Below, in pieces: positions 31,148 to 49,775 of a DNA stretch of 64,000 nucleotides (position 1 is the stretch's first letter; every line of letters starts with the position of its first letter). Both the position numbers and the translations under genes were made by a program. A model generated the notes under the pieces. It ran no database searches. It was not told the origin of the DNA and saw nothing but the letters and a program-made list of their open reading frames with translations. Source of the DNA: Ferruginibacter sp. (GTDB lineage: Bacteria > Bacteroidota > Bacteroidia > Chitinophagales > Chitinophagaceae); NCBI GenBank assembly GCA_028288705.1, contig JAQBNH010000019.1:186001-250000 (forward strand), in the 5' to 3' direction.

Positions 31148-32050
31148 ATGTATAAAATTCTTCTGCTGCTTTGGTTGTTTGCGGCCTGCAATCATGCTCC
31201 AACGATAGAGCTGGATAATACCCCACATGCCGCATCTGCAGCGCGTCTTAACGATGCCGGCAGTATTATCCGCGAACGCATTCCCGTACCTGAAGGATAC
31301 ACAAGGGTAACAGAAGACGAGGGGTCTTTTGGCAAATACCTGGAAGATTTTCCGCTGGAAACTGCCGGTAGCAAAATCATCGATTACCGGGGAGCGCCGA
31401 TCCCTAACCAGGACGCGCATGTTGCAGTGTTGAAAATGGATGTAGGCACGCGCGACTTACAGCAATGCGCAGACGCTGTGATCCGCTTGCGGGCAGAATA
31501 TTTTTACAGTAAAGGCCTGTTTGATAAGATCGCTTTTCACTTTACCAGCGGCGATTTGTTTAGCTGGGCGCAATATAAAAATGGTTATCGCGCAGCAGTA
31601 AATGGCAACAATGTTTCGTTTGTGCAAACCGCTGCGGCAAATGATTCAAGATCGTCTTTCAGGAATTACCTGGACGCCCTGTACAATTATGCAGGCACGA
31701 TCTCGGTGTATAAAGAGACGGTGGCGAGAACTGCGGATGCGCAAATTTCAACCGGGAACATTTTGATCAGTCCGGGGAGCCCTGGCCATGTAGCAATCAT
31801 TGTGGGAAAGGCAGTAAGCGGTAAAGGGAAGGCTGTTTACCTGCTGGCAGAAGGATACACGCCCGCGCAGTCTGTACATATCATCAACAATCCCTGGGAT
31901 GAAACAATCAGCCCCTGGTACGAGCTTTCGGTAGCGGATGAGGCCATCAACACAGCGCGTTACCGGTTTAATCCTGCCAGTATCCGGAGCTGGAAAGTTA
32001 TTTTGGCAGGGTCGCAAATGCAGCAAAGACCAATGCCTGCAAACCGTTGA
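31148..32050 (+). CDS. DUF4846 family lipoprotein
   Basis: 300 residues from ATG 31148, giving the lipoprotein signal MYKILLLLWLFAAC (lipobox FAAC). The mature part starts with IIRERIPVPEGYTRV and continues with GSFGKYLEDFPLE, CADAVIRLRAEYFYSKG and HFTSGDLFSWAQYKNG, the pattern of DUF4846, an uncharacterised family of Bacteroidota exported proteins; ISPGSPGHVAIIVGKA carries a conserved-looking His. A frame extension to 30971 is rejected because it lies before the promoter. Its last 53 bases overlap the end of the convergent giant gene at 31998. Confidence 0.85.
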   Translation: MYKILLLLWLFAACNHAPTIELDNTPHAASAARLNDAGSIIRERIPVPEGYTRVTEDEGSFGKYLEDFPLETAGSKIIDYRGAPIPNQDAHVAVLKMDVGTRDLQQCADAVIRLRAEYFYSKGLFDKIAFHFTSGDLFSWAQYKNGYRAAVNGNNVSFVQTAAANDSRSSFRNYLDALYNYAGTISVYKETVARTADAQISTGNILISPGSPGHVAIIVGKAVSGKGKAVYLLAEGYTPAQSVHIINNPWDETISPWYELSVADEAINTARYRFNPASIRSWKVILAGSQMQQRPMPANR

Positions 32051-35000
32051 ACTCGATGCCATCAGGATTGGCGAGTTCACGGTCGATGCTGGGCTCCGAA
32101 AATGTTACGCCATCTGTATGGCCGTTCCAGACCCGCTCTATTTTTCCGAGTCCGCCCGAAATTAAGGTCTGGCGTACGAGTGCAAAAGCCTGGTGAAAAT
32201 TATTTAATTGCAAAGCCCTGCTGCTTGTTGTGTCACCGGCGTTTATGCCTAACCGCTGGCTCATTAATTCTTTGCGGAATCCGGCAATTGCCCGCGACTG
32301 CCCGTTTACCTGGTCGATATCTGTAAATACCAGGTCCGAACTGCCGTCGAATGTTAAGCCGCGGCGGCGGAAGGCGCTGCTGCCGCAAAGGCACCAGCTG
32401 TCATCGACGATCAGCACTTGTTGTTCGAGGTTCGCCGGCCTGCCGGGAAAGCCGATGGGATGAAAAGCGACCACTTGTTTTTGAGGAAGCGACTGGATGA
32501 TCGTAAAGCGTTCTTTAATTTCTGATTGTATCCACTGGTCGTATTGCCTTTGGTAATCGGGCTGGCGCGGAACGCAGATGATCACGCGGAGGCCGGGTTT
32601 TGCAGCGCATTGCGTATTGAGCTCGGCGATCAGGTCGGCCGCATAATCCGCCGTTGCTGCGCCTTTTGTAAAACTTAGCCCTGGTGTTTCAATATAAATG
32701 GAGTGCCTGGCCTGTTTGATCGCATTCAGCAACGCCCACTGCGTATCGCGACGCCCGAAACAAGCTGCGGCTAATTCCCGTTTGAGTTCATTGAACAAGC
32801 GTTCTTTGTCGCTTTCGGATAAGGCATTGTTGTCTTTCAACGTATTCAGGGCGGTTACGAGTTCCGTCTTCAGGCGGTTGGCGGCTGTTTGTACCAGCCC
32901 GGAAAGGGATCCCGTGTTGATGCCATTGATCCAGCCCGCGACCTGGTCTGTCAATGCATCAAATGTTGCCGGCAGGCTGTCGATATTTGTTTCTACAACA
33001 GATTTCAACAAACCTAATTCAGGTGTTTCGCAGAAAGGAGCGATGTTCTGTAACAGGCTTCCGGCAAAAGTTCCTGCTGTAGCAGATGCAGGGCTGTTCT
33101 CTGCCAATGCAACAGGCGCTATAGGTTCCTGCCAGGCGGCATTCGACAATTGTACGATCCGCTGGTAAAAGCTGGTCGTACGGCGAAAAGCCATCCTGGC
33201 GATGTCGTAGGCCAGCTGCCCGTTTTGCGTGTACAGCCCAACGTTAGCTGTCTCTTTTCCCCCCGGGCTGCCGGGGCATCCACGATCAGGTAGGGCATTG
33301 TGCAACTGTGCTGTTAGTTGTCCGCCGCTGATCAATGCCTGCCAGTTCGTTGCTTTTTTTGCTGCAGCTAAAAACTCCCGGCGCGCCATTGTTGCCTGGC
33401 GGTTGGCATCCCTGGGTGAGGCCTCGCCCGTTAACGCGAGAATGGAATTGAGTGTCGCCGATGTGCTGCTGAAATCCACCACGGTATTTACGGCCTGTTG
33501 CATACCTAGAATGGCAGCATTGCTCACCCCTTTTTTCACAACGGCATTCATAACATTGAATGCGCCTGGTGCAGGAAGCGTGACAGCAACGGATTGAACA
33601 GGTAACTGGATCGCTCCAAATAAACGCTTCGTTATGCCATCATGCAGGTTGATCATCAGTTCGAAGATCAGCGTCGGATCGGTGGGGACGGTTACTGTGC
33701 CATCGGTGCGTTTTAAACCCAGCGGATCTTTTAACACCAGGGCCAGTTCGCCGTTGAGTGTGCGACCGGTAAATGGCGGCACGCTGCTCACACAAACGCC
33801 ACCTGCGCCATCGCCACGTTTTAGCACGGCATCGTTCCCGAACACGCGGTTGTATACGCGGATCGCGGCACCTAGAGGAATGCCGGTGAGTTTGAGCAGG
33901 ACATCCGTTGCCTGGCCACCGCCTGGAGCCGGGATAAAGTCTGCACGGCTATTAACGGTTAGTTCCTTTTTAAGGTTAGGCGGAAAACTGTTGTTTTCTT
34001 CCGTCACGGTTACATCGCCCGGCAAGGCAGGAAACGCCGGCCAGGAGATATCTGTGTTGTTCACGGGAAGGGGTAAACGCTCATCCAGTTGAATAGCAAC
34101 ACACAGGGATTCAGTCGGGGAACCGGAAAAAATAGTTTGTATTCTTCCCATCAGCTCGTTACCTGTCGCCAGCATTTCCAGGGGTTCGTGTAGCCGTATC
34201 GCGGGCAGGGGTGCAGCTTTCGTGCCGTTGAAGGCAGCCGGCGGCGCGCCAATCAGGTAAGCTTCCATCTCCACTACTTTCACAGTGAGAAAGTCGTGGC
34301 TTAAGGTATTTCCGGCAAGTGCTGAGGGTAATTTTAGTAAAGGCATTTTATCCATCAGCCTTCCATAGCAGGTATTTCCAAATAATAATTGCCTGGCTTT
34401 TTCCGGGGGAAAACTGCCGCCGGCGCTGCTGGCTGCTTCGCGAACCAATTCGCCTTTGAGGCTGGTATCGGTTCCCGTATAGCTGTTGATCGAAAATAAT
34501 CCGATGGCGGTATCCACTGCGGTGATGCCGGTTATGTGCCCGCCTGCATAAGGCCGTCCATCGGGTTTCACCAGACGGACGAGATTGCTGCTACTCAATA
34601 GCCCGGTTATGTGCGCCAGTTGATTGCTTAATGTATTGTCGGTATCGATGTCGAGCACGGGATAAATAGCCAGCAAAGATTTTAGCAGGCTGGCAACATA
34701 CAAGGGGTGAATGATAAAACCCTGTTCGTCGAAGAAACTCAGCGAACCGGTAAAACCGATGTCTGTTCCGGCGTCGATAAAGCCGCTGGTCATACCGCTT
34801 GCACTGCTGCTGGTAAAAAATACAAATGCGGGTACCTGGCGTGTTACATTTCCTGTGGCACGTAACGGGTTGTGGGTATTCGCTTCTTCCATTTTCAATC
34901 CAACAAGCCGCTTCATGCGCAGCACCTGTTGTGGGAAAAGCCTTAATACCGCGCCAGCTTCATTTACCATCGTGCCATCGGCCTTTTGCAGGCTGTATTG

Positions 35001-35225
35001 TAATTTCTTCGTACTGGTGTCCACTTCGTTGAGAATACCGGCGAACGGCGCCAGCCAATTGTTCGTGTTGCTTTGTAAAGTGAGGGTCGCCGCATCAAAA
35101 CTAATGGATGGCGTATCCACGTTTTGATCCACCCATTTCTGCGTCGATGCGGGCATCGTGAAACTTAGTCCGCGGATGCCAAACTGTTTCAGGTTTTCTA
35201 CCGTGATATCTTCAATAACAGGCAT
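31998..35225 (-). CDS. Giant-cluster protein C: 1075 residues with degenerate phospholipase-D-like domain
   Basis: No signal peptide or membrane helix. Residues 1-300 are an alpha/beta region (GFIDAGTDIGFTGSLSFFDEQ, PDGRPYAGGHITGI), 300-560 is beta-rich with many Pro and Val strands, and 560-820 is largely helical. From about 823 to 1000 the pattern is that of a phospholipase D domain: ALLNAIKQARHSIYIETPGLSF, VIICVPRQ, and LEQQVLIVDDSWCLCGSSAFRRRGLTFDGSSDLVF. The last is the HxKxxxxD...GS motif with His and Lys replaced by Glu and Gln (residues 933-952), so hydrolysis by the usual mechanism is unlikely. Last gene of a three-gene set, 19 bases after its neighbour. I do not recognise the whole protein. 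Confidence 0.75.
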   Translation of the reverse strand: MPVIEDITVENLKQFGIRGLSFTMPASTQKWVDQNVDTPSISFDAATLTLQSNTNNWLAPFAGILNEVDTSTKKLQYSLQKADGTMVNEAGAVLRLFPQQVLRMKRLVGLKMEEANTHNPLRATGNVTRQVPAFVFFTSSSASGMTSGFIDAGTDIGFTGSLSFFDEQGFIIHPLYVASLLKSLLAIYPVLDIDTDNTLSNQLAHITGLLSSSNLVRLVKPDGRPYAGGHITGITAVDTAIGLFSINSYTGTDTSLKGELVREAASSAGGSFPPEKARQLLFGNTCYGRLMDKMPLLKLPSALAGNTLSHDFLTVKVVEMEAYLIGAPPAAFNGTKAAPLPAIRLHEPLEMLATGNELMGRIQTIFSGSPTESLCVAIQLDERLPLPVNNTDISWPAFPALPGDVTVTEENNSFPPNLKKELTVNSRADFIPAPGGGQATDVLLKLTGIPLGAAIRVYNRVFGNDAVLKRGDGAGGVCVSSVPPFTGRTLNGELALVLKDPLGLKRTDGTVTVPTDPTLIFELMINLHDGITKRLFGAIQLPVQSVAVTLPAPGAFNVMNAVVKKGVSNAAILGMQQAVNTVVDFSSTSATLNSILALTGEASPRDANRQATMARREFLAAAKKATNWQALISGGQLTAQLHNALPDRGCPGSPGGKETANVGLYTQNGQLAYDIARMAFRRTTSFYQRIVQLSNAAWQEPIAPVALAENSPASATAGTFAGSLLQNIAPFCETPELGLLKSVVETNIDSLPATFDALTDQVAGWINGINTGSLSGLVQTAANRLKTELVTALNTLKDNNALSESDKERLFNELKRELAAACFGRRDTQWALLNAIKQARHSIYIETPGLSFTKGAATADYAADLIAELNTQCAAKPGLRVIICVPRQPDYQRQYDQWIQSEIKERFTIIQSLPQKQVVAFHPIGFPGRPANLEQQVLIVDDSWCLCGSSAFRRRGLTFDGSSDLVFTDIDQVNGQSRAIAGFRKELMSQRLGINAGDTTSSRALQLNNFHQAFALVRQTLISGGLGKIERVWNGHTDGVTFSEPSIDRELANPDGIEFNGLQALVFAAFATLPK

Positions 35226-35244
35226 GTGTTTATTTTTATGTTGA

Positions 35245-38200
35245 TCAGGTTTCTGCTTTTATTTCGGTGGCTTTATTGAGTGGATCGGTGATCTTGATGA
35301 TCAGTTTTACCGGGCTTGATTTTACGCAGACACTGAATTGCGTAATACCTGTTGCGGTGTTGGGTGGCTGATGATTTAGTTTTGGTAATTCATCTGCCTG
35401 TGCCGGCGTTGTTGCCAGGGACAGAATGGTCGCAGAACGCGAAGATTCATGTGCGGTAAATGTTTTTAGCAACCTGCGGTTGTTATCCGTATCCAGCGTA
35501 TAAATTTCGATCGTTGCTTTTCCCAGGTCCACCTTATCAAAAGGAGCAGTCGTGGTTAGCACGAACAGGCTGCTGAAGGCATTGTGGGCCGCGCTTGTGA
35601 GCAATAATGCCGGCGGGTTCACGGGCGGGAAATAAACGATCTCTGTTGTACTGGCGTTACTTTCGCCGCTGAGTTTTCCGCGGCTCGCGTCTGCAATACC
35701 GATCGCTACTGCCTGGTAAACATAAGGCCGCCAGCTCCGGTCGATGCCGAGTTCACGCACCTGTTTGCCATGGTAAGTTGTACCGTCCAGTAACTGTATT
35801 ACTGTATCGGACCATTGCAGGGCAGTGTGGTCGTATACCGGCAGTCCTTTCATACCCACATCGCTGCTCAGGATTTTTTTTCGCGTGCGATAGAGTTGAT
35901 AGCCGAGCGGCGCATCGCCGATGGTTTGAACAATTTTCACTTCCAGGCCTTCGCCTACCGGATCGGTTAATGCCCGTTTTTTATAGGGCCTTACCTGTAA
36001 CATGGGCGCAGCAGGTTTGATCACTTTCGGCACCGCATAAAATACGGTATTGCTTTTAGCACTTTCAATATTGGCGCTGTTCACGCTGCTTACCTGGTAC
36101 AGGTACATTACGTCAGAACTTCCGGGCAAGGCCAATTCGTAACTGGTGGTTTTCACCGGGTCTTTTGTGATCTTATTAAAAGAGCGCTGGCATGGATTGC
36201 TGTATTTAGCCTGCGCGAGCAGATCGCGCAATTGCGTGGCGCGTACGGTGTAGGGTTCGTTCAGCGGCTTCAACCATTTGGTATTGTCAGACGGAAATTC
36301 GTCGCGCAATATTTTGTCCAGCGTTACACGAACTGCTGTTTCGCTGGCCTCCCAGAGATGATAAGCCAATGCCCCCGTTGCGGCTGGCCAGGTTAATTTA
36401 CCACGACCCAATTTTGTGGCATCGGGAACAGCTGTAAACAATACGGTTGCCGGTAAAACAGTTACTGCGGGCGGCCTTGGATCTGCCAGCCTGCTCACAT
36501 AACCTTTCGCCCAGGGACTATATTCATTTATTGGTTTTCTCACCGTTTCGAGTCCGCGGATATAGGCCGTGTACGCTACTTCAAACGGTGCGATGCCGGG
36601 AAAACTGCATTTGATATCCGGGATGCGGAGCTTATACCTTTTTAAATTATTACTGGGTACATCGGTACTGCCGAATTGTACATGGTCAGGTGGCGGCGGG
36701 CCTGAAGGCGGATTAGGCTGCATGATCGTGATCGTGCCCAATGATGTCGTGGGTAGTACATTCGGGTTGGTGGAGGAGAAAATAATATCGATCGGGGGCG
36801 TAACAAAATCACCTGCACGTGTGCCGAAAACAGCAGGAACCGTTGCCGGCGGATCATTCAGCGCAGCATTAAAAAACTGGCCCGCAATCTGGATCCTGGC
36901 AGGAGAGCGGTCGATCCAGTCCCAGCCAAAATCTATTTCCAGGTGTGCATCTACTTCGGGTTGATTTGGCAGGAGGTTCTGCATGTTTTCCGGATCGGCC
37001 AGTTCCAGGCGGATCGACATGATACCCGGTTGTTGCGGTGCTACGGCCTGGGCGGTAAAGCCTTTTTTCACCCAGGGCGTCCAGCGGCCAAACAGGTCCC
37101 AGCCGGCGATAAAATATTTATGCAGCGCCGTTCCATACAAAGGAACCGGTTCATCCGTTTCTGTGAGCACGAATTTGCCGATGTCATCTGCGTCCTGTTC
37201 CACGCCATCTACTTTTGGTACGGGTGTAAAGAAATTTTTATAGATATCGGGGGCAAAATCGTAAGGGTCATTCATTACGTTGGTGGGTCCCGGTTTATAA
37301 TTGGCTGCCATACCAAAGCCATGTGGTACAAAGCCCTGTTTCCAGCGAAGTTTGATTGCTTCGGTATATTCGCCATCCATTATTTCGGGTCGGTTTTTTT
37401 GAATGCCGAATACCTCAATTTGTTCCGGTGTCATGGGATTGGCGCGTTCGTCATTTAATGCGCAGAAAGTAATTTTTTTGCTGAGGTCATCCAGGAAGGA
37501 AAAAGGAAATTCTTCAAACGGGCGAACGATGTATTCGGCTGTAACCATATAATCGAAACCGAGGAAATTATTGGAGGCTGCTGCCACCGCGTTATTTGAC
37601 ATGTATGCGTAACTACGCACGTTCGGTTGTAGCAAACGCAGCGGCACAAAATCATAGGTGCCAAAGCCAAGGCCCAGTGCGGCCGGACTTTCATTGCTCA
37701 CGGAGAGCAATGTATGTTTTACCACAGGGATGGAAATTTCTGCGGGCTTTGGCGGAAGGCCACTACCGGTTTGACTAATGCCATTGATCACCGTTTTTTC
37801 AACATAGCTAATCTGCCGTTTATTTCGATCGAAGGATAGGTCATCACTATTCGTGAGGCATTTCCTGATAGATAATAATTGTTCATGCCCGAGCATTTGC
37901 AGGTATGGAATGGCTGCTGGATGTTTCCAGCTAACGTTGTTGCATTGTGCATCCAGAGCATTGATATTAGCGGGGGGCATAAACAACCATTCACCCATTT
38001 TTAATCGTTGTTCAGCGGCTTTGACACCGGTAGTGGGTGCGCTCACAAATCCCTGCGGATCTGCCTTATAACCCAGTCCGCCTACGTCTGTTTTTTTAAA
38101 TGGAAAGCCAACGACCTGGATCTTTTCCCAGTCTGTGGCATTGATCACACTGTCCATGGTTACGCCGGCGAGGTTATTCATCGCACCGATGCCTTCGCAA

Positions 38201-38667
38201 TAAACGCCTGTCATAAAAGGTGCTTTGAACAGGATACTACCGGAGGCGGTTAGCCGCACTGCTTTCGCACGCATTAAAATATTATCACGGCCCAATGGTG
38301 TGAGCAGGATAGACTGCCCGGCGGGTATCGTGACGCTGACAGCCATCACGTACATTTCTACCGGGAAGAAAAACGCACGGAACAAACTGATCGCTTCATT
38401 GCCGCCGCTAATCTGCCGGATGATACTGTCTGCATTGTATTTGGCCTGGCGCCTGTAAACGATGAACGGCTTGCGTGGGAAACCCAGTTCCGGGTGCATC
38501 GTCCAGCGCAGACCGATCGGCACATTGCCTGCATCAATATTTTTCACGCCCCTGAACGATTCGTCTTTTTTGATATTGGGCAGAAAAACATTCTGGTAAA
38601 TGCCCTGCTGCAGCGTATCATACAATGTTGCGCTGTAAAGTTGAAATGCCGGGTGACTGAGTAACAT
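35245..38667 (-). CDS. Giant-cluster protein B: 1140 residues, multi-beta-sandwich, unknown
   Basis: No signal peptide, no clear membrane helix. The N-terminal 330 residues form an unfamiliar domain (LLSHPAFQLYSATLYDTLQQGIYQ, MGEWLFMPPANINALDAQC). From about 560 to 1140 there are several strands-and-turn stretches like fibronectin type III or immunoglobulin folds, for example KLTWPAATGALAYHLWEASE and YQLYRTRKKILSSDVG, with repeated references to Tyr-Gln-Leu-Tyr strands and a Pro-rich hinge (PNPPSGPPPPDHV) near 665. That layout suggests a long rod of domains. Spaced 37 bases after protein A and 19 before protein C, so the three are surely one operon. No family recognised. Confidence 0.7.
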   Translation of the reverse strand: MLLSHPAFQLYSATLYDTLQQGIYQNVFLPNIKKDESFRGVKNIDAGNVPIGLRWTMHPELGFPRKPFIVYRRQAKYNADSIIRQISGGNEAISLFRAFFFPVEMYVMAVSVTIPAGQSILLTPLGRDNILMRAKAVRLTASGSILFKAPFMTGVYCEGIGAMNNLAGVTMDSVINATDWEKIQVVGFPFKKTDVGGLGYKADPQGFVSAPTTGVKAAEQRLKMGEWLFMPPANINALDAQCNNVSWKHPAAIPYLQMLGHEQLLSIRKCLTNSDDLSFDRNKRQISYVEKTVINGISQTGSGLPPKPAEISIPVVKHTLLSVSNESPAALGLGFGTYDFVPLRLLQPNVRSYAYMSNNAVAAASNNFLGFDYMVTAEYIVRPFEEFPFSFLDDLSKKITFCALNDERANPMTPEQIEVFGIQKNRPEIMDGEYTEAIKLRWKQGFVPHGFGMAANYKPGPTNVMNDPYDFAPDIYKNFFTPVPKVDGVEQDADDIGKFVLTETDEPVPLYGTALHKYFIAGWDLFGRWTPWVKKGFTAQAVAPQQPGIMSIRLELADPENMQNLLPNQPEVDAHLEIDFGWDWIDRSPARIQIAGQFFNAALNDPPATVPAVFGTRAGDFVTPPIDIIFSSTNPNVLPTTSLGTITIMQPNPPSGPPPPDHVQFGSTDVPSNNLKRYKLRIPDIKCSFPGIAPFEVAYTAYIRGLETVRKPINEYSPWAKGYVSRLADPRPPAVTVLPATVLFTAVPDATKLGRGKLTWPAATGALAYHLWEASETAVRVTLDKILRDEFPSDNTKWLKPLNEPYTVRATQLRDLLAQAKYSNPCQRSFNKITKDPVKTTSYELALPGSSDVMYLYQVSSVNSANIESAKSNTVFYAVPKVIKPAAPMLQVRPYKKRALTDPVGEGLEVKIVQTIGDAPLGYQLYRTRKKILSSDVGMKGLPVYDHTALQWSDTVIQLLDGTTYHGKQVRELGIDRSWRPYVYQAVAIGIADASRGKLSGESNASTTEIVYFPPVNPPALLLTSAAHNAFSSLFVLTTTAPFDKVDLGKATIEIYTLDTDNNRRLLKTFTAHESSRSATILSLATTPAQADELPKLNHQPPNTATGITQFSVCVKSSPVKLIIKITDPLNKATEIKAET

Positions 38668-38704
38668 AATCGACGATTTTCTTTCTGTTATATTTTAAAT
38701 TTTA

Positions 38705-41700
38705 TCAATCTTCCCATGGCGCTTTCGGGAACAGTTGCAGTTCTGTCAGCGTCAGAGATTTTACCGGCAGTGCATAAAAGCTGCTGGCAGTTTGTTCAAT
38801 CATTACGGTAAATGTTGTTCCGCTTTCCGGCCAGGAAATGCTGTTGAATAAGATCAGCGTTTTTGTTCCTGCGGTGGATCTGATGAATTGTTTGATGATC
38901 GCCTGTCCTGATTTTTTCCTCAGGACCATGGCATCCACCAGGGTATTTTCATAGATCTTAAACGCGGGATCGATCTCGTTCATCTGTTCATTTAACACCG
39001 GTTTCTTCACTGATTCCATTCTTGATCTCCAGAGCGGCTCACTGGCATCGATCAGTAAAGCGTAAGGGGAGAAGTCGCCCGAATTATTTGCCCAGCAAAG
39101 CGTGATGCCGGTTTTTTCTTTCGCGTCATCGGGTGCAAAGCCGGCATTTGTAAGCGCCGTTTCCAGGTCGATATCTGTAAGCGTATGAACGGAAGGTTCA
39201 GGACCGGGAACGGCAGCGGGTAGGCCTGCGAAATTTGCTTTCAGCGCTTTGTGCCGCAGCGCCTGCGTGGACAATTCTTTTACCAGTTCTTCCAGGTTGG
39301 CATAGCGGCTGGTTTTAAACGCCCGGCGGAAGAGTGGCTGTTCAGCACTGTTTAGCGCCACGGGATCTTTTGGTTCTACATCAATGTCGAATGTGTAAGG
39401 CATCAATGGTTTTAAAATAAATGGCGGATTGTATACTGCGTGTGTAGGGAAATTCATCACGCCAATGCAGGGCAATTTACCTGCGGCGATCAATGCCTCA
39501 ATCGCCTCACGATAAGGGGTTTTTACTGAGGCAGGAATTGCTTCTGTTGTGTTGATGATCTCCGGGCTTTGAACCATGGGCAATCCATCTGCGCCGCGGA
39601 TGATGGCTTTTAATTGTTTGCCATAAGCCTGGTACATTTTAATAAATGCGTTGTCATTAAATACCACTTTTAGCGGGTCTTCAAAGAAATGAAACTGGTC
39701 GTCCATTACCGGTATCGTACCTAACACATAAGGCGATAAGGGCAACGGTGCTTTGTTGTCGGTTTTAAAAGCAAACGTTTGCGTTTCGTTCGCAGTGCTT
39801 TTTACTGTGAATGCATCCGTAGGTTTTTTGCGCGTTTCAATCGTAACCGTATAATCAATGACGACGTTATACGTCTTATTCGGTTTTAGCAAAGGCACCG
39901 GCGTATTATCGTTCAGGTAACCGCTTAGTGTTTCCTGTTCTGTCGTCAGCATTTCTGTTACATGGGCTTCGTGTTGCACTTCGGATAACTGCAACGTTTC
40001 TATCGCAGAAATATACAGCACCGGAATGCCCAATTCTTTATTACAGGTACAGATGCGAACGCGTGTGGCGTTTTTATTTTTGGGTTTCAACTCAAATAAT
40101 ATGCGGTTGTATTCATTGTAGAAACCACTTTGCAAATAAGTGCCCACCGGCAGTATTTGTTGTCGCCATGGAACTGCCAGCCAGTCTGCAGGGAAATCGG
40201 TATTTGGATTGATAACGTTTTTTATAACCAGGTCTGCCAGTTTGTATTGCGCCAGTACCTGGTTGCTGCTACTGAGTTCTTCAACATACACAGGTCGTGT
40301 TGTTTTTTTATGCAAGGCTCCATAGAATAACGCAGACTCACACGCACCGGAATCAAAAATGGTGTAACAGCAACTGTCGGCCTTATCAAAATAGGCTTTC
40401 AGTTCCTGCTCTTTCATCAACTCACGCCACTGACGTTTTTGCTTGTCGTCATCGCGGGTGCAGTAAGGCATTTGCAGGCTGCGGAAACAACGCAACATTT
40501 CTGCGAACGCCTGCAGGTTGGTGTTTTTTACACGGTCATAACAAATCTCCAGGATCTGACCGGTGAAGTTGCGGTTGTAGATCAGGATATGTTTGATCTG
40601 GTCGCCTTTTAAGGTGATCGTATGAATTTGTTCCCTGCGGCTACTGTCCACAAAAATTTGCTGATCCAGTTTTTTTGATTGCGTGTCATACGCGTAGATG
40701 ATCAGGCGTGGCCGTTCCTTTGCCTTGGTATTGAAACAGGTGAAGCTGATGGAAACCGCATCTACAGGTTCTTTCAGCAGGTCGATGCGCATGTATTCGC
40801 GGAGGCTCAGCCCGATCGTTTTTTTAATCGCACGGTAATGGGTGCGGTAAGGACTTTCATAAGGATCGAGTTGCGTATGCGGGATAAATGCATTGCGCAC
40901 AAAGAAGGAACGTTTGTCTTCGGCACTGAATATTTTCAGTTCTTCTTCCACAATAAGCGGGTTCTTCTTATAACCGGCTTTTTCCTGGCGGAAAGAGAAA
41001 CATTTGTGTTGCCGCGTTGGTGGTATATTAACATTCAGGTTTTCGATACCAACAATTTTGGCGGCATTACAACGTCCATAACCGGCAGCGCCCAATACCA
41101 TATCGAAAGAGCTGAAGCGGCTGGAAGCATTGGGTTCGTAAATTTTCATAATGCGGTTAACGGGTTCTGTCCGAACGGTTCCAACCGGGTCAGGTTTAGG
41201 GGTGCCGATCAACACCCAGCCGCTGCTGGAAAGGCCAATGGCCTGTCCGCAGAAAGTATATAAAACAGGCGCGGCAGGGGCAGCTTGTTTGCAGGCATTT
41301 TCCCAGCGCACTTCTACATTTTTATTTAACTCTGTACTTCTTTCAATCGCGTGCGGTGCTGTTGCGGGCGTTCTGCTGAAAGTGGCCAGGTCAACGCTGG
41401 TATCCGTCGGACTTCCATTATTCGGCCGGTCGATCCGCCACACACTTGGTGGTTTCGTGCTGCCGGAATTATAGTCTGCGCCGTTCTCTTTTAATTTTAC
41501 AGAATTCAGTTTGTAGGTCACCTGCACTTCATCGCTCAATTTTAACACACCGCCAGTTCCACTCAACACACCCGGTGATAAGACAAATGAATTCGCCGCG
41601 AAATTGCTGTCAAGAGTTGGAGACGCATGTAACTGAATGACGGGTAAAGAATCGATCGGTACGGTAACAACTGTTGATGGTACAGGACCGGTAGAAAGAT

Positions 41701-44700
41701 CGTGTGCGTTGCCGAGGCTGGAATCGATTGGTTTTGTACTTCCCTGTCCGCTCGTGAGCACCGGGCTGAAACTCTGGAGGTAAACCCCCCGCACCAGTTT
41801 CGGCGCTTCCACATCATAATCTTCGTCGCCGATGGTAATGCCGATACAGGCGCTGATCTCGAAGAAAAAGAGATCGATACTTCCACAGACCTCGCCATGC
41901 ATATACACTTTCAGGTCGTTGGAATTTTTCACTTTTGTAACGAGGATATCAAAGCTTCCTCGCGCGCCGATGCTGAGGATAACGAGGCGCAGCTTACCGG
42001 TAAAATACATATTCCCTACAACCATGAAGGGGCTGAAACTTACGCCCAAATGAGCACCTGCAGCGATCTTCAGGTAAACGCCTGCACCTTCATCACCCAG
42101 GATGATCGAGGCTTCCAGCCCGATTGCAATGGCAATGCCGTTCAATACTTTGTCGCGCATGAATTCCGGAACACGTGTGCCATAGTCGGCATATTTTAAC
42201 TGGTTACCCTGCAGCATCAGGTAGGCGCTGCCGCGCACAATATCAAGGATGGTGGCAGATGCCGGTTGGGCGATCGTGCCCAGGTACAGGTGCCAGTTGG
42301 ATGGATCGTTCCATTTAAAAAACAGTTCGATCGGTAAGGTGATCGCCAGTACTTGTTCGATGCTGAAGTTAAGCATAACGCCAAGGGTTAGCTGCTGGCG
42401 GTTAAAGTCGATATCGATGATACCGATGATGCCTACTTCCAGATTTTTCGCCGGATCCGGTGGCTGGCTTGGAAGCACGGAAACGATCTTCACTTTCACC
42501 ATGATCAGGATGCGTGGCCCCGGCAATTCGAGGACGAGCATTCCCTGCATGTTCACGAGGAAGCCACCTTCGGCTGTGCCCATTAACACACCGATGCCAA
42601 AGCTCCAGCGATCGAATGCCATTCCCCAGAGTTTGTTGCCCGCAGGTGCCATTGCTTCTTCCACGGAGGATTTGGTGCGCATACGCGGCGGTTCACCGCT
42701 GGCCTTGATCAGCCAGTTCAGGGCAGGGCCAACAGCTTTGGTCGGATCGGCCGGCGCTTCGAGGCGTTTATAATGCATGGCGAAGAGTCCCATAAAGCCG
42801 TAGATACCGAGGCCCGTCGCACCTAAAATAATGGGTGTCGGAAATTGTACGATCATGCCCAGGAAAACGCTGATCGCTTCACGTTGGGTAGTGTTGTCTT
42901 TCAACGTACCCACACCCATATTGGCGAGGATACGGATCTTCAGAGACACGAGCGTAAGATCCAGTCCGCCTTCTATGCCTTTTGCATGAGTGGTGCTGCC
43001 ATCGTCATTGGTGATATCTGTGTCGATGATTTCTACAAAACCGTTGCCGACGAGCACACCAGGAATATTCACACGAACGCCGCTGGGAATGATTTGTGGT
43101 GCGCCGATCGGGTCCAGGGGAATTTTTAATTTGAACCGATCCACCGTGATCACCCCCAGATCTACTTTGATCGCAAAATCTACTTCCAGTGTTACGGGAT
43201 TAAAACGCGCGAGCCGTGCACCAACAATGTTAAACAGGTTACCGAGTGGCGCAGGAAGTTGAAACAGGGACGGGTCACTGAGATCAAGATCATAGCCGCG
43301 GCTGGCATCAAAAACCGGCGTATAGGTCAATCCTTTGTAAGCGGGCGTATCTGAATAATTCAGGTTGAAGCCGATTGCTTTGTACCTCGCGCGTAGTGGC
43401 GGCGGCAGTGGCGTAGGTGCACCAGGCAGGCGATTTTTTCCAATGCCGAGTTGCTCAACGATGATATCAAACTGTACTTCATAATCGAACACTAGGCCAA
43501 TGTCAAGGCTGCGTAAAGGCTCACCCGGCGCGGGTGTAACGAAACGGGTGCGTGCTTCCCCGCCGTAAAGGATCACTTTCCGCGTGCGGAAAATGTTGAG
43601 TCCGCCGATCGCTACCGGCACTGCGAGCGAAACGCCTAACGCGATCCATGCGCCGGGATCATCGGTATTGTTTCCAACGGCAGTGGCGGCACTGTTGATC
43701 ACCGGTGCGAACAACAATAATGCCCCGAAAATATTCTTGAACCGATCATCGCGATTCGCGTTATTGTCCATATGCAACAAGCCATCGGTGTCACGTTCAT
43801 CGCTGTGTAATAGAAAGATCAGCGTAGTTTCATTGGTTGCCTGGTCGTACTGATAGGTCACCTTAAAATCGATCTCCCCATCATGCGCGTTCCCATGTTG
43901 CAGGGCCAGATCACCGGTTGGTTCACTCGAAGGTTCGTTGCGTAATTTCTTTTCCAGTTCTGTTTCAAAATCAACTTTACCATACAGTTCAAGCAGGCTG
44001 AGTTTGTTTCGTTCGATCTTAACGCGGATTCCCAGTTGTTTTAGAACAGGCGGAATATCATTTGGCAACGCAGGTGCTGCGGGAGGGCCAGGAGGCACAA
44101 CAGCTGGTGGCGGCGGACCTGGAACAAAGGCCGGGCGGCTAATGGTCGCCGTTATGTTGACTGCGGGCCGGGATGCGCTGGTAAAACTTATGCGTACAAG
44201 CCGGTTTTCATCATTGGAATGATTGGGGTTGTGCGGATCAAATGGCTCAGTAGAATAGGGCAGGCTGCTGTGCCCGTGTGCGATCGGGTTGATCGTAACC
44301 CCGGGGTAAAGTGCTGCCAGTTTTTGTTGCACAACGGAATTTCGCCGCGCTGATAACTCCACATCGGCAGAAGGATTGCTGGGATCATTACTTGCCCAGC
44401 CGTCCAGCTGAATGCCTCCAATACCTGCAGCAGCAGGCCTGTTGGCTTCGAATGACTGGAATGAACTTAGGAAAATCGAATCGTTGGTTGTTACCGGCGG
44501 ACCAACATAGCTGGCCGCATCTGTGGTTCCGGAAGGCCTGGCAAAACTGAAAACTAATTCCGGTTTATCCGGCAACACGCCCGCCGTTTGTAGAGGAAAA
44601 TTTACTGAGAGCGCGAGGTTGGTATTATTCGGCACATCCAGCTGTACCGTACGCTGGTTAGAAAAAGTTAATGGCGTAGTTCCGCCTGTTACATTTACGG

Positions 44701-46180
44701 AAAAAGGTTCTGGCCCACGTATCTCCAGGTTGATCGTTTGCCCCTGTTGCGTGATGGTAACATCGTGTTCTGCATCATTGCCCGCTTTGTTGAAAGGATT
44801 GATCGGTTGTAACGGTTCTGTTGCGGGTGGATTATCTGCGGCAGTACCGTTTTGCGGGCCTGCAGCAACAGCAGCCTGGACGGTCACCAGGATATATTCT
44901 GAACTTAACAAAGCGCCGCCGGCGCCTGTACTGGAATCACGCACCGCAACGAATACTTTAAACGCACCAGCATCCGGGAAACTTGCCGTGCGGGAGCCGG
45001 CATTCCAGATATTTGTTCCGTCTTTCATCACCCGGATCGTGTAAGGCGGCATACCGCCATTCACCTGCAGGTGCATCACCGCTCCCTGTTGAACCGTGAT
45101 GCTGCCGCGCGGATCTGAAGTGGGGATCGCATCCACTGCAGGCTGATCGATCACCCCACGGATAAAATTTCCTGCCTGCGTAGCGCCATTATAAAAAACG
45201 GGTGTTGCCGTGATCACCCCGAGCGTACTGTTTAAGTAAATATCGAGCGCTGCTTCCAGGCTGACTTCTCCCGAGAAAGAGATCAAGGCATCTTTCAGCC
45301 GGATATTAAATCCAACACCCTGGTCATTGCTGAAATAAAATAATGCCTGCCCGATGAAAATGCCTTCCCATGCTTCATCTACCCCAAAATGTTCGAGGAT
45401 CTCCGGCGGCGTTGCATCTTTACTGGCATCAATCACCACGCGGTCTATGCTGAACGCCACATGTTCACTTTGGTGAACGGCAATGGGCGGATGCATCCTG
45501 ATCACTTCCCCCATTGCGAGATCCTGTTGTGCATCAAAACCCGCGACTCCCCAGCTCTCTATTTTAAACGTCGGATTCAGATTATTGGCGTCATCTCCCT
45601 GGGCGTAACTGATCAGTACTTTGGGCAGACTGATCACCACGCGTTCACTGGCATGAGCAGGATCAATTTTTACCCGGTTATCTGCAGGGTTGATGATGCC
45701 CGGTTTCCATTCGGCACCAAGAGAAAAATTAAGGATATCTACCAGCAGTTCCAGGCGAAAAGAAACAGCGGGGAAGTCAACCACTGGCGCGGCAAGGACG
45801 TCCATATCTGAATCAGGTTGCGGACGAAGATCATTCAGTAAAGCAGCCACTGCCGGAAGTTTTCCGTCGGAGGAAGAATTGGCGGCCCTGTCAACAAACT
45901 CAGCGCCGTCGCGCGGTACGATCATCCGGAACTGTATATTTTTTCGCTCCCAGGTAAACCTTGCGCCGGAAGGATCTTCATGCACCACTTCTGCAGAACC
46001 GCTGCCATCGCCCTCAAAGCTGGCTGTGCCGCTGTACACGATAAAATGGTCATCATAAAAACTGTTGAACTCATCGATGCCGAGAACGGCCAAATAATTT
46101 TGTACCTGCTGCGGCAGCTGGATACCGGCTAAGTACTGTGGTGCTAAAAGATCAAAAAGACCGAGTTTTCTGGCGGGCAT
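38705..46180 (-). CDS. Giant-cluster protein A: about 2491 residues, multidomain, unknown
   Basis: I take the start at 46180 (MPARKLGLFDLLAPQYLAG); 46222 and 46282 are in-frame alternatives. No signal peptide. Parts, numbered from 46180: N-terminal domain (1-340); an immunoglobulin-like segment (about 350-436, GGMPPYTIRVMKDGTNIW); an OmpA-like segment (566-668) with GIQLDGWASNDP, LSARRNSVVQQKL, AHGHSS and ENRLVRISF; a Pro-rich hinge; two hydrophobic helices (about 815-863); and a long hydrophobic beta-rich stretch (about 966-1456) reminiscent of DUF6603, with GIGVLMGTAEGGFLVNMQG and LVLELPGPRILIMVKVKIV. Jelly-roll and Cys-containing segments follow (CFSFRQEKAG, CCYTIFDSGACESALFYGAL). It heads the operon A-B-C. 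The DUF6603 likeness is from memory. Confidence 0.72.
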   Translation of the reverse strand: MPARKLGLFDLLAPQYLAGIQLPQQVQNYLAVLGIDEFNSFYDDHFIVYSGTASFEGDGSGSAEVVHEDPSGARFTWERKNIQFRMIVPRDGAEFVDRAANSSSDGKLPAVAALLNDLRPQPDSDMDVLAAPVVDFPAVSFRLELLVDILNFSLGAEWKPGIINPADNRVKIDPAHASERVVISLPKVLISYAQGDDANNLNPTFKIESWGVAGFDAQQDLAMGEVIRMHPPIAVHQSEHVAFSIDRVVIDASKDATPPEILEHFGVDEAWEGIFIGQALFYFSNDQGVGFNIRLKDALISFSGEVSLEAALDIYLNSTLGVITATPVFYNGATQAGNFIRGVIDQPAVDAIPTSDPRGSITVQQGAVMHLQVNGGMPPYTIRVMKDGTNIWNAGSRTASFPDAGAFKVFVAVRDSSTGAGGALLSSEYILVTVQAAVAAGPQNGTAADNPPATEPLQPINPFNKAGNDAEHDVTITQQGQTINLEIRGPEPFSVNVTGGTTPLTFSNQRTVQLDVPNNTNLALSVNFPLQTAGVLPDKPELVFSFARPSGTTDAASYVGPPVTTNDSIFLSSFQSFEANRPAAAGIGGIQLDGWASNDPSNPSADVELSARRNSVVQQKLAALYPGVTINPIAHGHSSLPYSTEPFDPHNPNHSNDENRLVRISFTSASRPAVNITATISRPAFVPGPPPPAVVPPGPPAAPALPNDIPPVLKQLGIRVKIERNKLSLLELYGKVDFETELEKKLRNEPSSEPTGDLALQHGNAHDGEIDFKVTYQYDQATNETTLIFLLHSDERDTDGLLHMDNNANRDDRFKNIFGALLLFAPVINSAATAVGNNTDDPGAWIALGVSLAVPVAIGGLNIFRTRKVILYGGEARTRFVTPAPGEPLRSLDIGLVFDYEVQFDIIVEQLGIGKNRLPGAPTPLPPPLRARYKAIGFNLNYSDTPAYKGLTYTPVFDASRGYDLDLSDPSLFQLPAPLGNLFNIVGARLARFNPVTLEVDFAIKVDLGVITVDRFKLKIPLDPIGAPQIIPSGVRVNIPGVLVGNGFVEIIDTDITNDDGSTTHAKGIEGGLDLTLVSLKIRILANMGVGTLKDNTTQREAISVFLGMIVQFPTPIILGATGLGIYGFMGLFAMHYKRLEAPADPTKAVGPALNWLIKASGEPPRMRTKSSVEEAMAPAGNKLWGMAFDRWSFGIGVLMGTAEGGFLVNMQGMLVLELPGPRILIMVKVKIVSVLPSQPPDPAKNLEVGIIGIIDIDFNRQQLTLGVMLNFSIEQVLAITLPIELFFKWNDPSNWHLYLGTIAQPASATILDIVRGSAYLMLQGNQLKYADYGTRVPEFMRDKVLNGIAIAIGLEASIILGDEGAGVYLKIAAGAHLGVSFSPFMVVGNMYFTGKLRLVILSIGARGSFDILVTKVKNSNDLKVYMHGEVCGSIDLFFFEISACIGITIGDEDYDVEAPKLVRGVYLQSFSPVLTSGQGSTKPIDSSLGNAHDLSTGPVPSTVVTVPIDSLPVIQLHASPTLDSNFAANSFVLSPGVLSGTGGVLKLSDEVQVTYKLNSVKLKENGADYNSGSTKPPSVWRIDRPNNGSPTDTSVDLATFSRTPATAPHAIERSTELNKNVEVRWENACKQAAPAAPVLYTFCGQAIGLSSSGWVLIGTPKPDPVGTVRTEPVNRIMKIYEPNASSRFSSFDMVLGAAGYGRCNAAKIVGIENLNVNIPPTRQHKCFSFRQEKAGYKKNPLIVEEELKIFSAEDKRSFFVRNAFIPHTQLDPYESPYRTHYRAIKKTIGLSLREYMRIDLLKEPVDAVSISFTCFNTKAKERPRLIIYAYDTQSKKLDQQIFVDSSRREQIHTITLKGDQIKHILIYNRNFTGQILEICYDRVKNTNLQAFAEMLRCFRSLQMPYCTRDDDKQKRQWRELMKEQELKAYFDKADSCCYTIFDSGACESALFYGALHKKTTRPVYVEELSSSNQVLAQYKLADLVIKNVINPNTDFPADWLAVPWRQQILPVGTYLQSGFYNEYNRILFELKPKNKNATRVRICTCNKELGIPVLYISAIETLQLSEVQHEAHVTEMLTTEQETLSGYLNDNTPVPLLKPNKTYNVVIDYTVTIETRKKPTDAFTVKSTANETQTFAFKTDNKAPLPLSPYVLGTIPVMDDQFHFFEDPLKVVFNDNAFIKMYQAYGKQLKAIIRGADGLPMVQSPEIINTTEAIPASVKTPYREAIEALIAAGKLPCIGVMNFPTHAVYNPPFILKPLMPYTFDIDVEPKDPVALNSAEQPLFRRAFKTSRYANLEELVKELSTQALRHKALKANFAGLPAAVPGPEPSVHTLTDIDLETALTNAGFAPDDAKEKTGITLCWANNSGDFSPYALLIDASEPLWRSRMESVKKPVLNEQMNEIDPAFKIYENTLVDAMVLRKKSGQAIIKQFIRSTAGTKTLILFNSISWPESGTTFTVMIEQTASSFYALPVKSLTLTELQLFPKAPWED

Positions 46181-46493
46181 TTTTGCGGAATTAATTATGT
46201 GAAGGGCGATCAAAATAGGCATTGTTTTTTTTAGTTGCAAGTAACCAAAAGCGCGTAGTGGCCTGTACGGTGGGGGGGACAATGGGAAGGTTAAGCTAAT
46301 AGCCCTGATGCACTATGTTGTGCACTTATCCGGTCAGGTGTTTCGCCGAACGGGCTGCCCGATTTATTTTATAAGATTTGTTTTGCATCAGCAGGAAATG
46401 ATCTGTTCATGCTTTTTTCTTCCGGTTGATTCTTTTGGAGCGGCTTCTGCGCGGGAAATCAAAATCAATCATTAATTTTATTGTGCCCGGCCT
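46181..46493. other. Divergent intergenic region between giant cluster and clock-type module
   Basis: About 310 bases that must hold the promoters of the giant operon (minus) and the first kinase (plus). A small imperfect palindrome TGCACTATGTTGTGCA lies at about 46309-46324. I found no TAnnTTTG with a correct partner on either strand. The tail next to protein A may be coding if the longer start is used. Confidence 0.4.
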
Positions 46494-49400
46494 GTGGCCA
46501 GCATTTTTTTTAAACAGTTTACTTTGGCAGTTTCTATTTCTAATAAATTTTCCTTCTTGTCAGGCTCAGGCGAAATGGCCACTTTAATCCGCAACCACGA
46601 TTGGCAGCAAACGGGTTTGGGAGATCCCGCTCTTTGGCCGCAAACGCTGCGTACAACTTTAGGCATTGTGTTACATTCCAGGTTCCCGATGTTTTTATTC
46701 TGGGGGCCTGAGCATATTTGTTTTTATAATGATGCGTTTCGTCCAAGCCTGGGTACCGATGGCAAACATCCTTACGCGCTTGGCAAACCTGCTGAAGAGA
46801 TCTGGCCGGAGATATGGGGCGATATCAAGCCAATGATCGATAATATTTTCTCCGGTGGGGAGGCGACACTGATAGAAAATCAGTTGCTGCCAATATTCAG
46901 GAATGGCGGCATGGAAGATGTCTACTGGACTTACTCTTACTCACCCGTGCTGGATGAAGAAGGATTGCCTGCCGGTATTTTTGTAGCAGTAACAGAGACC
47001 ACGCGGGAGATGAAGCAGCAGCAAACACTACAGGCAGCGGAAAAAAACCTGCGCAATATTATTCAACAGGCACCCATTTCGATGGGCCTCTTTCGCGGGC
47101 CGGATTATATTGTTGAGATCACGAATGCTCTTAACCTTTCGCACTGGCAAAAAAGCGAAGAGGAAGTGATCGGGCGCCCGTTATTTGATATCCTGCCGGA
47201 ACTTGCCGGGCAGGGATTTGAGGAGTTATTGCAAAAAGTTTATACAACCGGCGAGACTTATACCGGCTACGATACCCCCGTTTCTCTCTTAAATAACGGG
47301 CGGATGGAAATGCGTTTTGTTCGCTTCGTTTTTGAACCCTACCGCGAAATGACCGGTGAAATTACCGGCATCATTGTCGCGTCTGTGGATGTGACCGAAG
47401 AAGTGACTGCCCGCAGGCTCCTGGAAGAACAGGAGCATTATTTTCATGAGCTCACGGATGGAGTCCCGGCCATCATCTGGATAACCGATGAAACAGGCTA
47501 TTGCAATTATTTAAACAGGCCCTGGTTTGAACTCACCGGGCAAACAAAAGAAGAGGCTCTTGGATACGGTTGGTTGAGCCCCATTCACCCGGAAGATAAA
47601 GAAGAGGCCGGACGACTCTTTACGAGCGCAAACGAGCAGCAGGAACCATTTTTTTCTGTCTACCGGCTTAAGATCAGTGATGGTGAATATCGTTGGGTGA
47701 TGGATCGCGGCCTGCCGAAATTCAGCAGTGACGGCCATTATGAAGGGATGATCGGAACGGTTGTGGATATACATGAGCAGATAACTGCGGAAAAAGAAAA
47801 ATCAGAAAGTGAGCGCCTCTTTCGCCAGCTGATTGCGGAAGCGCCGGTTCCTACCGCTTTATTCTGGGGAGATGATTTTAATGTGCGGCTGGCAAACCAG
47901 GCGATGCTTGATGCCTGGGGTAAAGACTGGGACGTGATTGGCAAACCGCTGATGGAAGCTATTCCCGAACTGGAAGGCCAGCCATTTGTAGATATTTTAA
48001 AAGATATCCAGCGCACGGGTAAATCTTATTCTGCCGAAGCGGCGCCTGCTGTCCTGGAAGTAAAAGGCGTTAAGAGTACTTATTATTTCAACTTTACCTA
48101 CAAGCCGATCATCGACCCGAACGGCGTAGTGAACGGTATCATAGATATGGCCATTGATGTAACGCCGCAGGTATTAGCGAAGAAGGCGTTGGCAGAAAGC
48201 GAAAACAATCTTCGCAATATGATTCTGCAGGCCCCGGTTGCCATGTGCATTTTACATGGCGAAAAGCATGTCGTTCAGATCGCCAATGAACGCATCTATG
48301 AAGTATGGGGAAGAACCGGAGAAGACTTCACAGGCCTGCCCATTTTTACGGCGTTGCCGGAAGCCGCAGGCCAGGGACTGGAAGAAATATTGTTCAATGT
48401 GTTTCATACCGGCGAGCGTTTTTCAGCTAACGGGCTCCCGATCAACCTGCCGCGGGCAAATGGTGTGGAAACCGTTTACCTCAATTTTGTTTATGAAGCT
48501 TTCCGGGGACCGGATAAAAAAATTACGGGCATCATGGCGGTTGCAAATGATGTTACAGAGCAGGTGCTTGCGCGAAAAGAATTACAACGTTCCGCGGAAA
48601 GGCTGGGGCTTGCGATAGATGCGGGCGAACTCGGCATGTTTGAGGTAAACCTTGCGACGGATGCGATGATCACCTCCCCACGTTTCAACGAAATTTTTGA
48701 TCTTTCGGATCAGCATACGCGTGATGAATATGCTGCAGCACTACATCCGCAAGACAAACATCTCCGTGAAGCCGCACACCAGTCCTCCAGGGAAACAGGC
48801 GTACTGGATTATACAACGAGGTTATTGCGAAGAGACGGCCGCGTAACCTGGGTACGCATTAAAGGCATTTTATCTTTCGGTGAAAACAAACAACCACATA
48901 ACTTATTGGGGATCGTGCAGGACATCACCGAGCAAAAGGAAATGGAATTCCAAAAAGACAGTTTCCTTGGCATTGCCAGTCATGAGTTAAAAACGCCGGT
49001 AACCAGTATCAAGGCCTATGCGCAGGTAATGGAAGCACAGTTTAAGAGAGGAGGCGATCTGAAAAACGCGGAGATGGTAAGCCGCATCGATAAGCAGGTG
49101 AACCGCCTCACTAATTTAATTTCAGACCTGCTGGATGTGACGAAGATCAATAGTGGAAAACTGTTGTTCAATACTTCTGCGTTTGACCTCAGCCAGCTGG
49201 TGCGCGAAGTGGTGGAAGACATGCAGCGGATTTCAGACAAACATACGATCATCACCGAATTGCATTTTCATGGTAATGTGGTGGCCGATCGCGACCGCCT
49301 GAGCCAGGTGATCACCAACATGATCAGTAATGCTGTGAAATATTCTCCTGCTGCGGATACGGTCATCGTGTCAACAGAAAAGAACGATGGACAGGTTCGC

Positions 49401-49622
49401 CTGTGCGTCCAGGATTTTGGGATAGGCATCAGCGAAGACATGCAACATCGTGTTTTCGAGCAATTTTTTCGTGTAACGGGTGCAAGACAATATACTTTTC
49501 CCGGCCTTGGCCTGGGCTTATATATCTCTTCTGAAATTATTTCGCGGATGGGCGGAACAATAACTGTTGACTCAAAAGAGGGAAAAGGTTCTACGTTTTG
49601 TTTCAGCATACCCATCGGCTGA
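46494..49622 (+). CDS. Multi-PAS sensor histidine kinase
   Basis: 1042 residues if the GTG at 46494 is used. The conserved opening SGSGEMATLIRNHDWQQTGLG begins before the first ATG (46575), so a non-ATG start (GTG 46494 or TTG 46524) is likely. About six PAS domains follow: a first FPMFLFWGPEHICFYNDAF block, then blocks of the type NIIQQAPISMGLFRGPDYIVEI three times, one PAS_3 type (HPEDKEEAGRLF) and a last one (LHPQDKHL). HisKA has phospho-His830 in ASHELKTP, and the ATPase has NMISNAVKYS, VQDFGIGIS and GLGLGLYIS. No membrane segment. It precedes kaiC by 153 bases, and the architecture mirrors the second kinase after kaiB. Likely a soluble sensor feeding or reading the Kai module. Confidence 0.85.
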   Translation: MASIFFKQFTLAVSISNKFSFLSGSGEMATLIRNHDWQQTGLGDPALWPQTLRTTLGIVLHSRFPMFLFWGPEHICFYNDAFRPSLGTDGKHPYALGKPAEEIWPEIWGDIKPMIDNIFSGGEATLIENQLLPIFRNGGMEDVYWTYSYSPVLDEEGLPAGIFVAVTETTREMKQQQTLQAAEKNLRNIIQQAPISMGLFRGPDYIVEITNALNLSHWQKSEEEVIGRPLFDILPELAGQGFEELLQKVYTTGETYTGYDTPVSLLNNGRMEMRFVRFVFEPYREMTGEITGIIVASVDVTEEVTARRLLEEQEHYFHELTDGVPAIIWITDETGYCNYLNRPWFELTGQTKEEALGYGWLSPIHPEDKEEAGRLFTSANEQQEPFFSVYRLKISDGEYRWVMDRGLPKFSSDGHYEGMIGTVVDIHEQITAEKEKSESERLFRQLIAEAPVPTALFWGDDFNVRLANQAMLDAWGKDWDVIGKPLMEAIPELEGQPFVDILKDIQRTGKSYSAEAAPAVLEVKGVKSTYYFNFTYKPIIDPNGVVNGIIDMAIDVTPQVLAKKALAESENNLRNMILQAPVAMCILHGEKHVVQIANERIYEVWGRTGEDFTGLPIFTALPEAAGQGLEEILFNVFHTGERFSANGLPINLPRANGVETVYLNFVYEAFRGPDKKITGIMAVANDVTEQVLARKELQRSAERLGLAIDAGELGMFEVNLATDAMITSPRFNEIFDLSDQHTRDEYAAALHPQDKHLREAAHQSSRETGVLDYTTRLLRRDGRVTWVRIKGILSFGENKQPHNLLGIVQDITEQKEMEFQKDSFLGIASHELKTPVTSIKAYAQVMEAQFKRGGDLKNAEMVSRIDKQVNRLTNLISDLLDVTKINSGKLLFNTSAFDLSQLVREVVEDMQRISDKHTIITELHFHGNVVADRDRLSQVITNMISNAVKYSPAADTVIVSTEKNDGQVRLCVQDFGIGISEDMQHRVFEQFFRVTGARQYTFPGLGLGLYISSEIISRMGGTITVDSKEGKGSTFCFSIPIG

Positions 49623-49775
49623 CATTTATAAATGAAAGGGTCATTTACCAGTCAATACAGCCTGTTTACGACAAAAACGTGAGAAATTTGTGATCAGCGC
49701 CGGCGCTGGAGATCAATTTCTTAAACTGGTATATTTTATGAATTTATCAGGATACCAATTAAAATTACCAACCCA

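Follow-up and report, generated by a model that had tools for sequence, protein, structure and literature searches.

A recurrent locus of giant proteins without signal peptides in Ferruginibacter sp. and other bacteria: a predicted complex with a DUF6603-related core and a phospholipase-D-fold subunit lacking the catalytic motif

Three tightly packed minus-strand genes lie in a 64,000-nucleotide stretch of Ferruginibacter sp. (assembly GCA_028288705.1, contig JAQBNH010000019.1, positions 186,001 to 250,000 of the forward strand; hereafter the window), and they raise the question of whether their giant products belong to one system and what such a system might do. The initial annotation, made from the letters alone, described an operon of giant multidomain proteins of 2491, 1140 and 1075 residues (here A, B and C). 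Its coordinates, lengths and gaps (37 bases between A and B, 19 between B and C) are correct, the 2491 residues of A corresponding to ATG 46180, which is the likelier start because relatives of A begin near it. None of the three reached a curated cut-off in Pfam, NCBIfam or PHROGs (E up to 1). The reported lack of signal peptides was also borne out by a crude hydrophobicity test over the first 32 residues, in which the threshold of 2.2 was exceeded by 2 of 61 A (one of them, L082, with an uncertain start) and by none of 50 B or 31 C; six window proteins that by eye appear to be secreted scored 2.55-3.21.

In the genomes of the window's family, the three genes occur together. Used as a query, B matched 8 of 394 genomes, one of them (G732) at 5e-5 only. 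The profile of the A core matched 25 of the 394 at 1e-5: seven matches were strong and lay in the same genomes as B (six at E 0 and one contig-end fragment at 2.8e-37), two were divergent A-like genes (G553 and G091), and the other 16, at 1.2e-7 to 9.8e-6 and mostly over the OmpA part, were left out of the family count (E above 1e-8). The C profile matched exactly the same seven genomes as the strong A matches. Profiles were required, as B alone found no relative in a first scan of genome contigs; as a single protein query C matched, among 395 genomes of the phylum, only the window's own.

Searching 84,980 genomes with the A profile gave 60 further loci, a lower bound since the scan depends on exact short patterns; several are metagenome-assembled genomes (MAGs) and a few are near-duplicates or genomes already in the family scan. 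Their record titles name Bacteroidota, Nitrospira, Myxococcus, Actinomycetota, Pseudomonadota, Acidobacteriota, Paenibacillus, Chloroflexi and Gemmatimonadetes, and the trio is not peculiar to Bacteroidota (nine phyla, counted by record title). With the window there are 61 A loci, four of which stop inside A, leaving 57 that are informative. B follows A in 55 of these 57 loci whose contig continues beyond A (28 A-B-C and 22 A-B loci by a coverage rule, and L075, L079, L081, L028 and L047 by search matches). The other two, L080 and L082, carry a gene of about 1030 residues that overlaps the end of A and resembles B at 71%; the Acidobacteria partner scored 35% against B with its N-terminus and 71% as a whole. 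C is present in 32 of the 57 loci (cut by the contig end in L060), absent from 21 and unknowable in two, and it was not found in L080 and L082. Among the 21 loci, L073 has only 797 bases left after B, and 20 form one clade of Actinomycetota and one Granulosicoccus MAG, L083 lying outside it. That C is encoded elsewhere in A-B genomes was rejected for 17 of the 21, whose whole-genome searches gave no full C (positive control at E 0) and, in four cases, short matches to ordinary phospholipases D (PLDs). Because of these 21 loci, we take A and B to be the core and C to be a frequent third part. Constant co-occurrence, by which the initial annotation proposed to recognise a single system, thus holds within the window's family and, outside it, does not extend to C. 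Its description of the trio as one undescribed system is upheld. The recurrence of these families, in the same order, in other phyla is more than chance, and we found no publication on the trio in open-licence PMC.

A scripted check of 28 loci found the order A-B-C in all of them. Measured with rule-chosen start codons, A-B gaps range from -26 to +55 bases in 42 of 46 loci and reach 147 in one, three large values being due to split or cut open reading frames, and B-C gaps range from -10 to +61 bases in 27 of 27. The distance matrices correlate at 0.965 for A and B (50 loci), 0.977 for A and C (31) and 0.950 for B and C (28), compared with at most 0.22 after label permutation. For 12 of 14 pairs, the ratio of nonsynonymous to synonymous substitution rates falls within 0.09-0.35, the other two, both with the window, being saturated; by this measure A, B and C are under purifying selection. 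A tree of A, built without support values, places Nitrospira next to Bacteroidota, and Pseudomonas falls in it among sequences from Acidobacteria and Gemmatimonadetes. Plasmid copies occur in Rhizobium tropici and Paracoccus (pAMI4, with A and B only). Gene A is broken into two overlapping frames in L018/L043 and L056, by either assembly error or decay. Taken together, these comparisons show, or come close to showing, that the trio behaves as one unit in inheritance, gene order, spacing and evolution.

Is there a fixed fourth partner? Neighbouring genes were called by codon score, leaving out those above 1100 residues or more than 2.5 kb away, and 86 were retained from 89 picks (five dropped, two added by hand). 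They are varied: among the best 25 of 165 families, the commonest reach 4 of 86 neighbours in 31 loci, and a fixed fourth partner was rejected on that count. The widest cluster in an all-against-all comparison of the flanks covers 8 loci. The same survey bears on the idea of an anti-phage or anti-plasmid defence module, which would agree with the patchy spread, the stand-alone cassette and the plasmid copies; however, A, B and C have no PADLOC match (E up to 0.1) and an AbiEii-like AAA_21 protein occurs in only 4 of 86 neighbours, and we consider this explanation very unlikely.

The nature of A is best approached through its core. Compared by hhalign with ten DUF6603 (PF20248) proteins, the A profile scored 91.9% (E 7e-7, 339 columns) and 94.8% with intermediates, whereas the reversed profile scored 0.3% and five block shuffles 0.1-4.5%. 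By tblastn, the A core of the window finds Mycetohabitans proteins annotated as DUF6603 (E 1e-6), and these match both the A profile (1e-58 and 2.5e-57) and the DUF6603 profile (8e-5 and 1.8e-6), as does the A-like protein of L132. A itself stays below the Pfam cut-off for DUF6603 and is tied to that family by profile-profile comparison and bridging proteins; judged in this way, the A core is a remote DUF6603 relative. We found no paper naming DUF6603 in open-licence PMC. In the AlphaFold2 model, the A core has strands of up to 18 residues, and its fold matches in the PDB are outer-membrane barrels, LptD, an usher and ApoB100, weak and of one kind.

DUF6603 itself occurs in 10 of 198 genomes of the phylum and is missing from that of the window. 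The ten Bacteroidota loci are runs of giant proteins, DUF6603 being accompanied by P1 in 7 and by P3 and P4 in 3, and two partner sets, P1+P2 and P3+P4, are recognisable beside it (L100-L109). P1-P4 have no Pfam family above cut-off (four scanned), and hhalign detects no relationship between them and B or C (scores of 0.3% or less). A likeness by eye between the B N-terminus and partners from DUF6603 operons was not confirmed for P2 (0.8% or less). The gene adjoining DUF6603 in L102 (12840-14513) and L104 (13026-14816) encodes, in L102, a metallo-beta-lactamase fold. Divergent A-like genes also have large neighbours: in L128 (G091, of the window's genus; 1724-16223) a gene of 2033 residues stands between genes of 1509 and 1142 residues, with a weak B match (5e-4) and no C, making another giant set in this genus, and in L129 (1675-13509) a gene of 1793 residues is followed by genes of 1223 and 927 residues, with no detectable C.

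C is more readily placed. Pfam PLDc_2 is found in it at E 0.0028, below cut-off, and a sequence profile search of the PDB gave nothing; its AlphaFold2 model (31 sequences) has a predicted local distance difference test score (pLDDT) of 81.6 and a predicted template modelling score (pTM) of 0.86. All 50 PDB matches listed by Foldseek belong to the PLD superfamily, the best being human PLD2 (E 1.3e-10, prob 1.00, TM-score 0.22 by query and 0.38 by target), and PLD-family effectors such as PldA are among them. The C-terminal part of C also aligns with six PLDs (hhalign 99.5%). However, HxK is missing from 31 of 31 members (L032 retains H alone), while the surrounding D, GS and RRG..FD survive; C thus has the PLD fold and lacks the catalytic HxKxxxxD of a PLD enzyme. 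We consider it likely that C is a non-catalytic PLD-fold subunit descended from an HxK-bearing PLD. The dead PLD-like domain is a strongly supported part of the domain content given by the initial annotation; with A a remote DUF6603 relative and C a PLD-fold protein, the trio, which matched no named system known to that annotation, is not without describable relatives.

A cousin of the trio is present on two Mycetohabitans plasmids, where genes for a 1322-residue protein, a 509-residue PLD-like protein and a DUF6603 giant are adjacent. In this PLD a complete HxKxxxxD motif (HSK) is accompanied by a second HxK, and the protein matches C both by hidden Markov model (HMM; 5.4e-11) and by hhalign (96.7%); the 1322-residue protein matches B by hhalign (94.0%, 225 columns) and has no HMM match to it at E up to 1. 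A passage of the Burkholderia rhizoxinica genome paper describes, on the plasmid, three large hypothetical proteins encoded in a cluster, of which one has a single phospholipase D domain (PMC3102044); we infer this cluster to be the cousin trio. As that part of the 2011 paper treats the cluster beside effector proteins, it lends something to the idea of a toxin or injected complex directed against other cells, with A as carrier or pore former, B as adaptor and the PLD-like part as former effector. The patchy cross-phylum spread, the plasmid carriage and the effectors such as PldA among the fold matches of C point the same way. Yet searches of Pfam, NCBIfam and PHROGs with the window proteins (E up to 1) list neither Tc nor Rhs nor any toxin family, the HxK is lost from every C (31/31), no small immunity-like neighbour is constant, and selection in the tested pairs is purifying rather than diversifying, so that we regard a toxin as unlikely.

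Other parts of A had suggested an extracellular or structural assembly to the initial annotation. Its OmpA-like domain is upheld: Pfam OmpA was matched by 3 of the 6 A members scanned (best E 4.7e-4; the A of the window itself has no Pfam match at 0.1) and the A profile matches PDB 6u83 (E 1.1e-4). Support for the immunoglobulin-like (Ig-like) domain is weak: it comes from a Hoc-like PHROG (E 2.3e-4) and from the PDB decoration protein 5lxk (E 0.0091). In OmpA, an Asp binds diaminopimelate, and this Asp and an Arg are the peptidoglycan-binding residues. The LSxRR part of the A motif is retained. By eye, the Arg pair is present in 32 of 36 members, and the place of the Asp is taken by AS in 34 of 36; A does not combine the Asp and Arg of peptidoglycan binding. 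One reading is a structure attached to the wall or surface, which leaves the cell by an unknown route and is anchored through the OmpA-like domain of A. It would make use of both this domain and the Ig-like part and of the retained LSxRR, but it sits badly with the lack of signal peptides in the crude test, the replaced Asp and the presence of the trio under titles of Gram-positive genera, and appears quite unlikely. The intracellular rod or cage released by lysis that was first proposed agrees with the large size, the beta-rich content and the absence of signal peptides. However, no internal repeats appeared among the A segments compared, the A core has no viral match at 0.001, phage and viral searches for relatives of the trio were empty save for the weak Hoc-like Ig match, no lysis gene was noticed beside the trio and its immediate neighbours vary; we consider this proposal very unlikely.

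B has no family. A PDB sequence profile search with it gave nothing. Pfam lists no fibronectin type III (FN3) domain in 37 B members, and the fibronectin-like content given by the initial annotation stays a reading of sequence patterns; B is probably, by prediction, a multi-beta-sandwich protein. Most A proteins end in a WE motif, as a rule in the form APWE: among the 57 with a complete C-terminus, 47 have it within the final 12 residues, and the ten without it are two split genes, two proteins of Acidobacteria and six from a remote actinobacterial clade. The partner of this tail is probably not C, because the tail is kept in A-B loci without C.

From linkage and joint evolution, we predict that A, B and C very probably form one complex. 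The best explanation that we can offer for its role, to be taken as tentative, is a signal-less A-B-C complex acting on lipid or membrane with C as a non-catalytic headgroup reader; lipid or membrane as the substrate is itself a possible reading, suggested by the PLD kinship and the weak fold class of the A model. Under this explanation, A, B and C would be subunits of one complex made in the cytosol. A would serve as scaffold, laying its long-stranded amphipathic beta core against lipid or another hydrophobic partner, and B, made straight after A through translational coupling, would act as a beta-sandwich clamp. C would owe its retained PLD fold to the binding of a phosphodiester headgroup (of a phospholipid or a similar compound) that it leaves uncleaved; in the Mycetohabitans cousin an HxK-bearing PLD might fill this role. 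The APWE tail may serve to dock B, or some other constant partner that is not C, and the complex could act on the membrane of its own cell or on a different one, either from within the cytosol or once exported by a non-classical way.

Several results weigh against this explanation. The A-core model is poor (pLDDT 66.8, pTM 0.42), its fold matches have TM-scores of 0.17 or less, and the alternating hydrophobicity of A also fits an ordinary soluble beta fold. The Pfam DUF6603 model had no match in 6 A members at E up to 0.1, and a purpose-built DUF6603 profile matched none of 59 A (E up to 10). Divergent A relatives, when compared one at a time with DUF6603, scored 0.1%, 1.8% and 7.1%. The N-terminal part of C scores 0.4% against PLDs, only the second PLD lobe being visible by sequence, and the 21 A-B loci show that C is dispensable somewhere. 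Finally, tree correlation is expected for any genes that descend together.

The features of the trio are collected in Table 1. Its G+C content is 50.3%, versus 45.7% in the remaining window, and promoter and terminator scans gave a signal no higher than shuffles. The 3' end of C overlaps that of a convergent DUF4846 gene by 53 bases. Divergent from the trio, positions 46494-53753 hold a PAS histidine kinase, a KaiC-like ATPase and another open frame, a possible regulator pair. Further away, two overlapping minus-strand genes (19566-21877) have weak PADLOC matches (SduA 3e-8, TIR effector 1.9e-4, PDC-M43B 2.5e-9) and may be ordinary signalling genes.

Table 1. Positions of the three genes and of their recognisable parts in the window
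Feature	Position	Strand	Description
Gene A	38705..46222	-	2505 residues from ATG 46222; 2491 from ATG 46180 (likelier start); giant, without signal peptide
Gene B	35245..38667	-	1140 residues; without family; probable multi-beta-sandwich protein; constant partner of A
Gene C	31998..35225	-	1075 residues; phospholipase-D-fold protein without catalytic HxK
A Ig-like stretch	44861..45124	-	Residues 367-454 from 46222; PHROG Hoc-like head decoration, PDB 5lxk
A OmpA-like motif region	44291..44428	-	GWAS...LSxRR; Pfam OmpA, PDB 6u83, alignment columns
A DUF6603-like core	41804..43096	-	Residues 1029-1459 from 46180; long amphipathic strands; hhalign, tblastn, low-confidence model
A C-terminal tail APWED	38708..38722	-	Motif conserved between phyla
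C PLD-like lobe	32322..32732	-	Residues 832-968; Pfam PLDc_2, hhalign
C place of the lost HxK	32400..32426	-	Residues 934-942; alignment columns of 31 members

Linked giant genes that are under purifying selection in nine phyla (by record title) and have no assigned function represent a sizeable knowledge gap. The present analysis gives DUF6603 proteins partners and a testable setting, brings out a phospholipase fold that has outlived its active site, and provides experimental handles in small loci and a five-residue tail. A broader and rather doubtful generalisation would be a class of intracellular assemblies that handle lipid or membrane, share a DUF6603-type beta scaffold, have spread horizontally and occur in both Gram-positive and Gram-negative bacteria. 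Such assemblies would have captured a PLD as a subunit, which the A-B-C branch would then have converted to reading headgroups without cutting them, and the DUF6603 operons would count as additional branches of this class.

Among known systems, Tc toxins consist of three proteins of about 2500, 1100-1500 and 1000 residues, and the trio is like them only in having three large proteins of such sizes. With the PLD superfamily (human PLD2, Streptomyces PLD, PldA), C shares the fold and the sequence of the second lobe, but it lacks the catalytic H and K, has large extra beta regions and shows no first lobe by sequence. The DUF6603 operons share with the trio their runs of giant genes and homology to the A core, whereas they contain no A-B-C, their partners are not kin of B or C, and the Pfam model misses A. 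The Mycetohabitans trio (pBRH02) differs in its order (B-PLD-A), in its 509-residue PLD with HxK and in lacking the APWE tail, but it brings together, as A-B-C does, adjacent genes of the A-like, PLD and B-like types.
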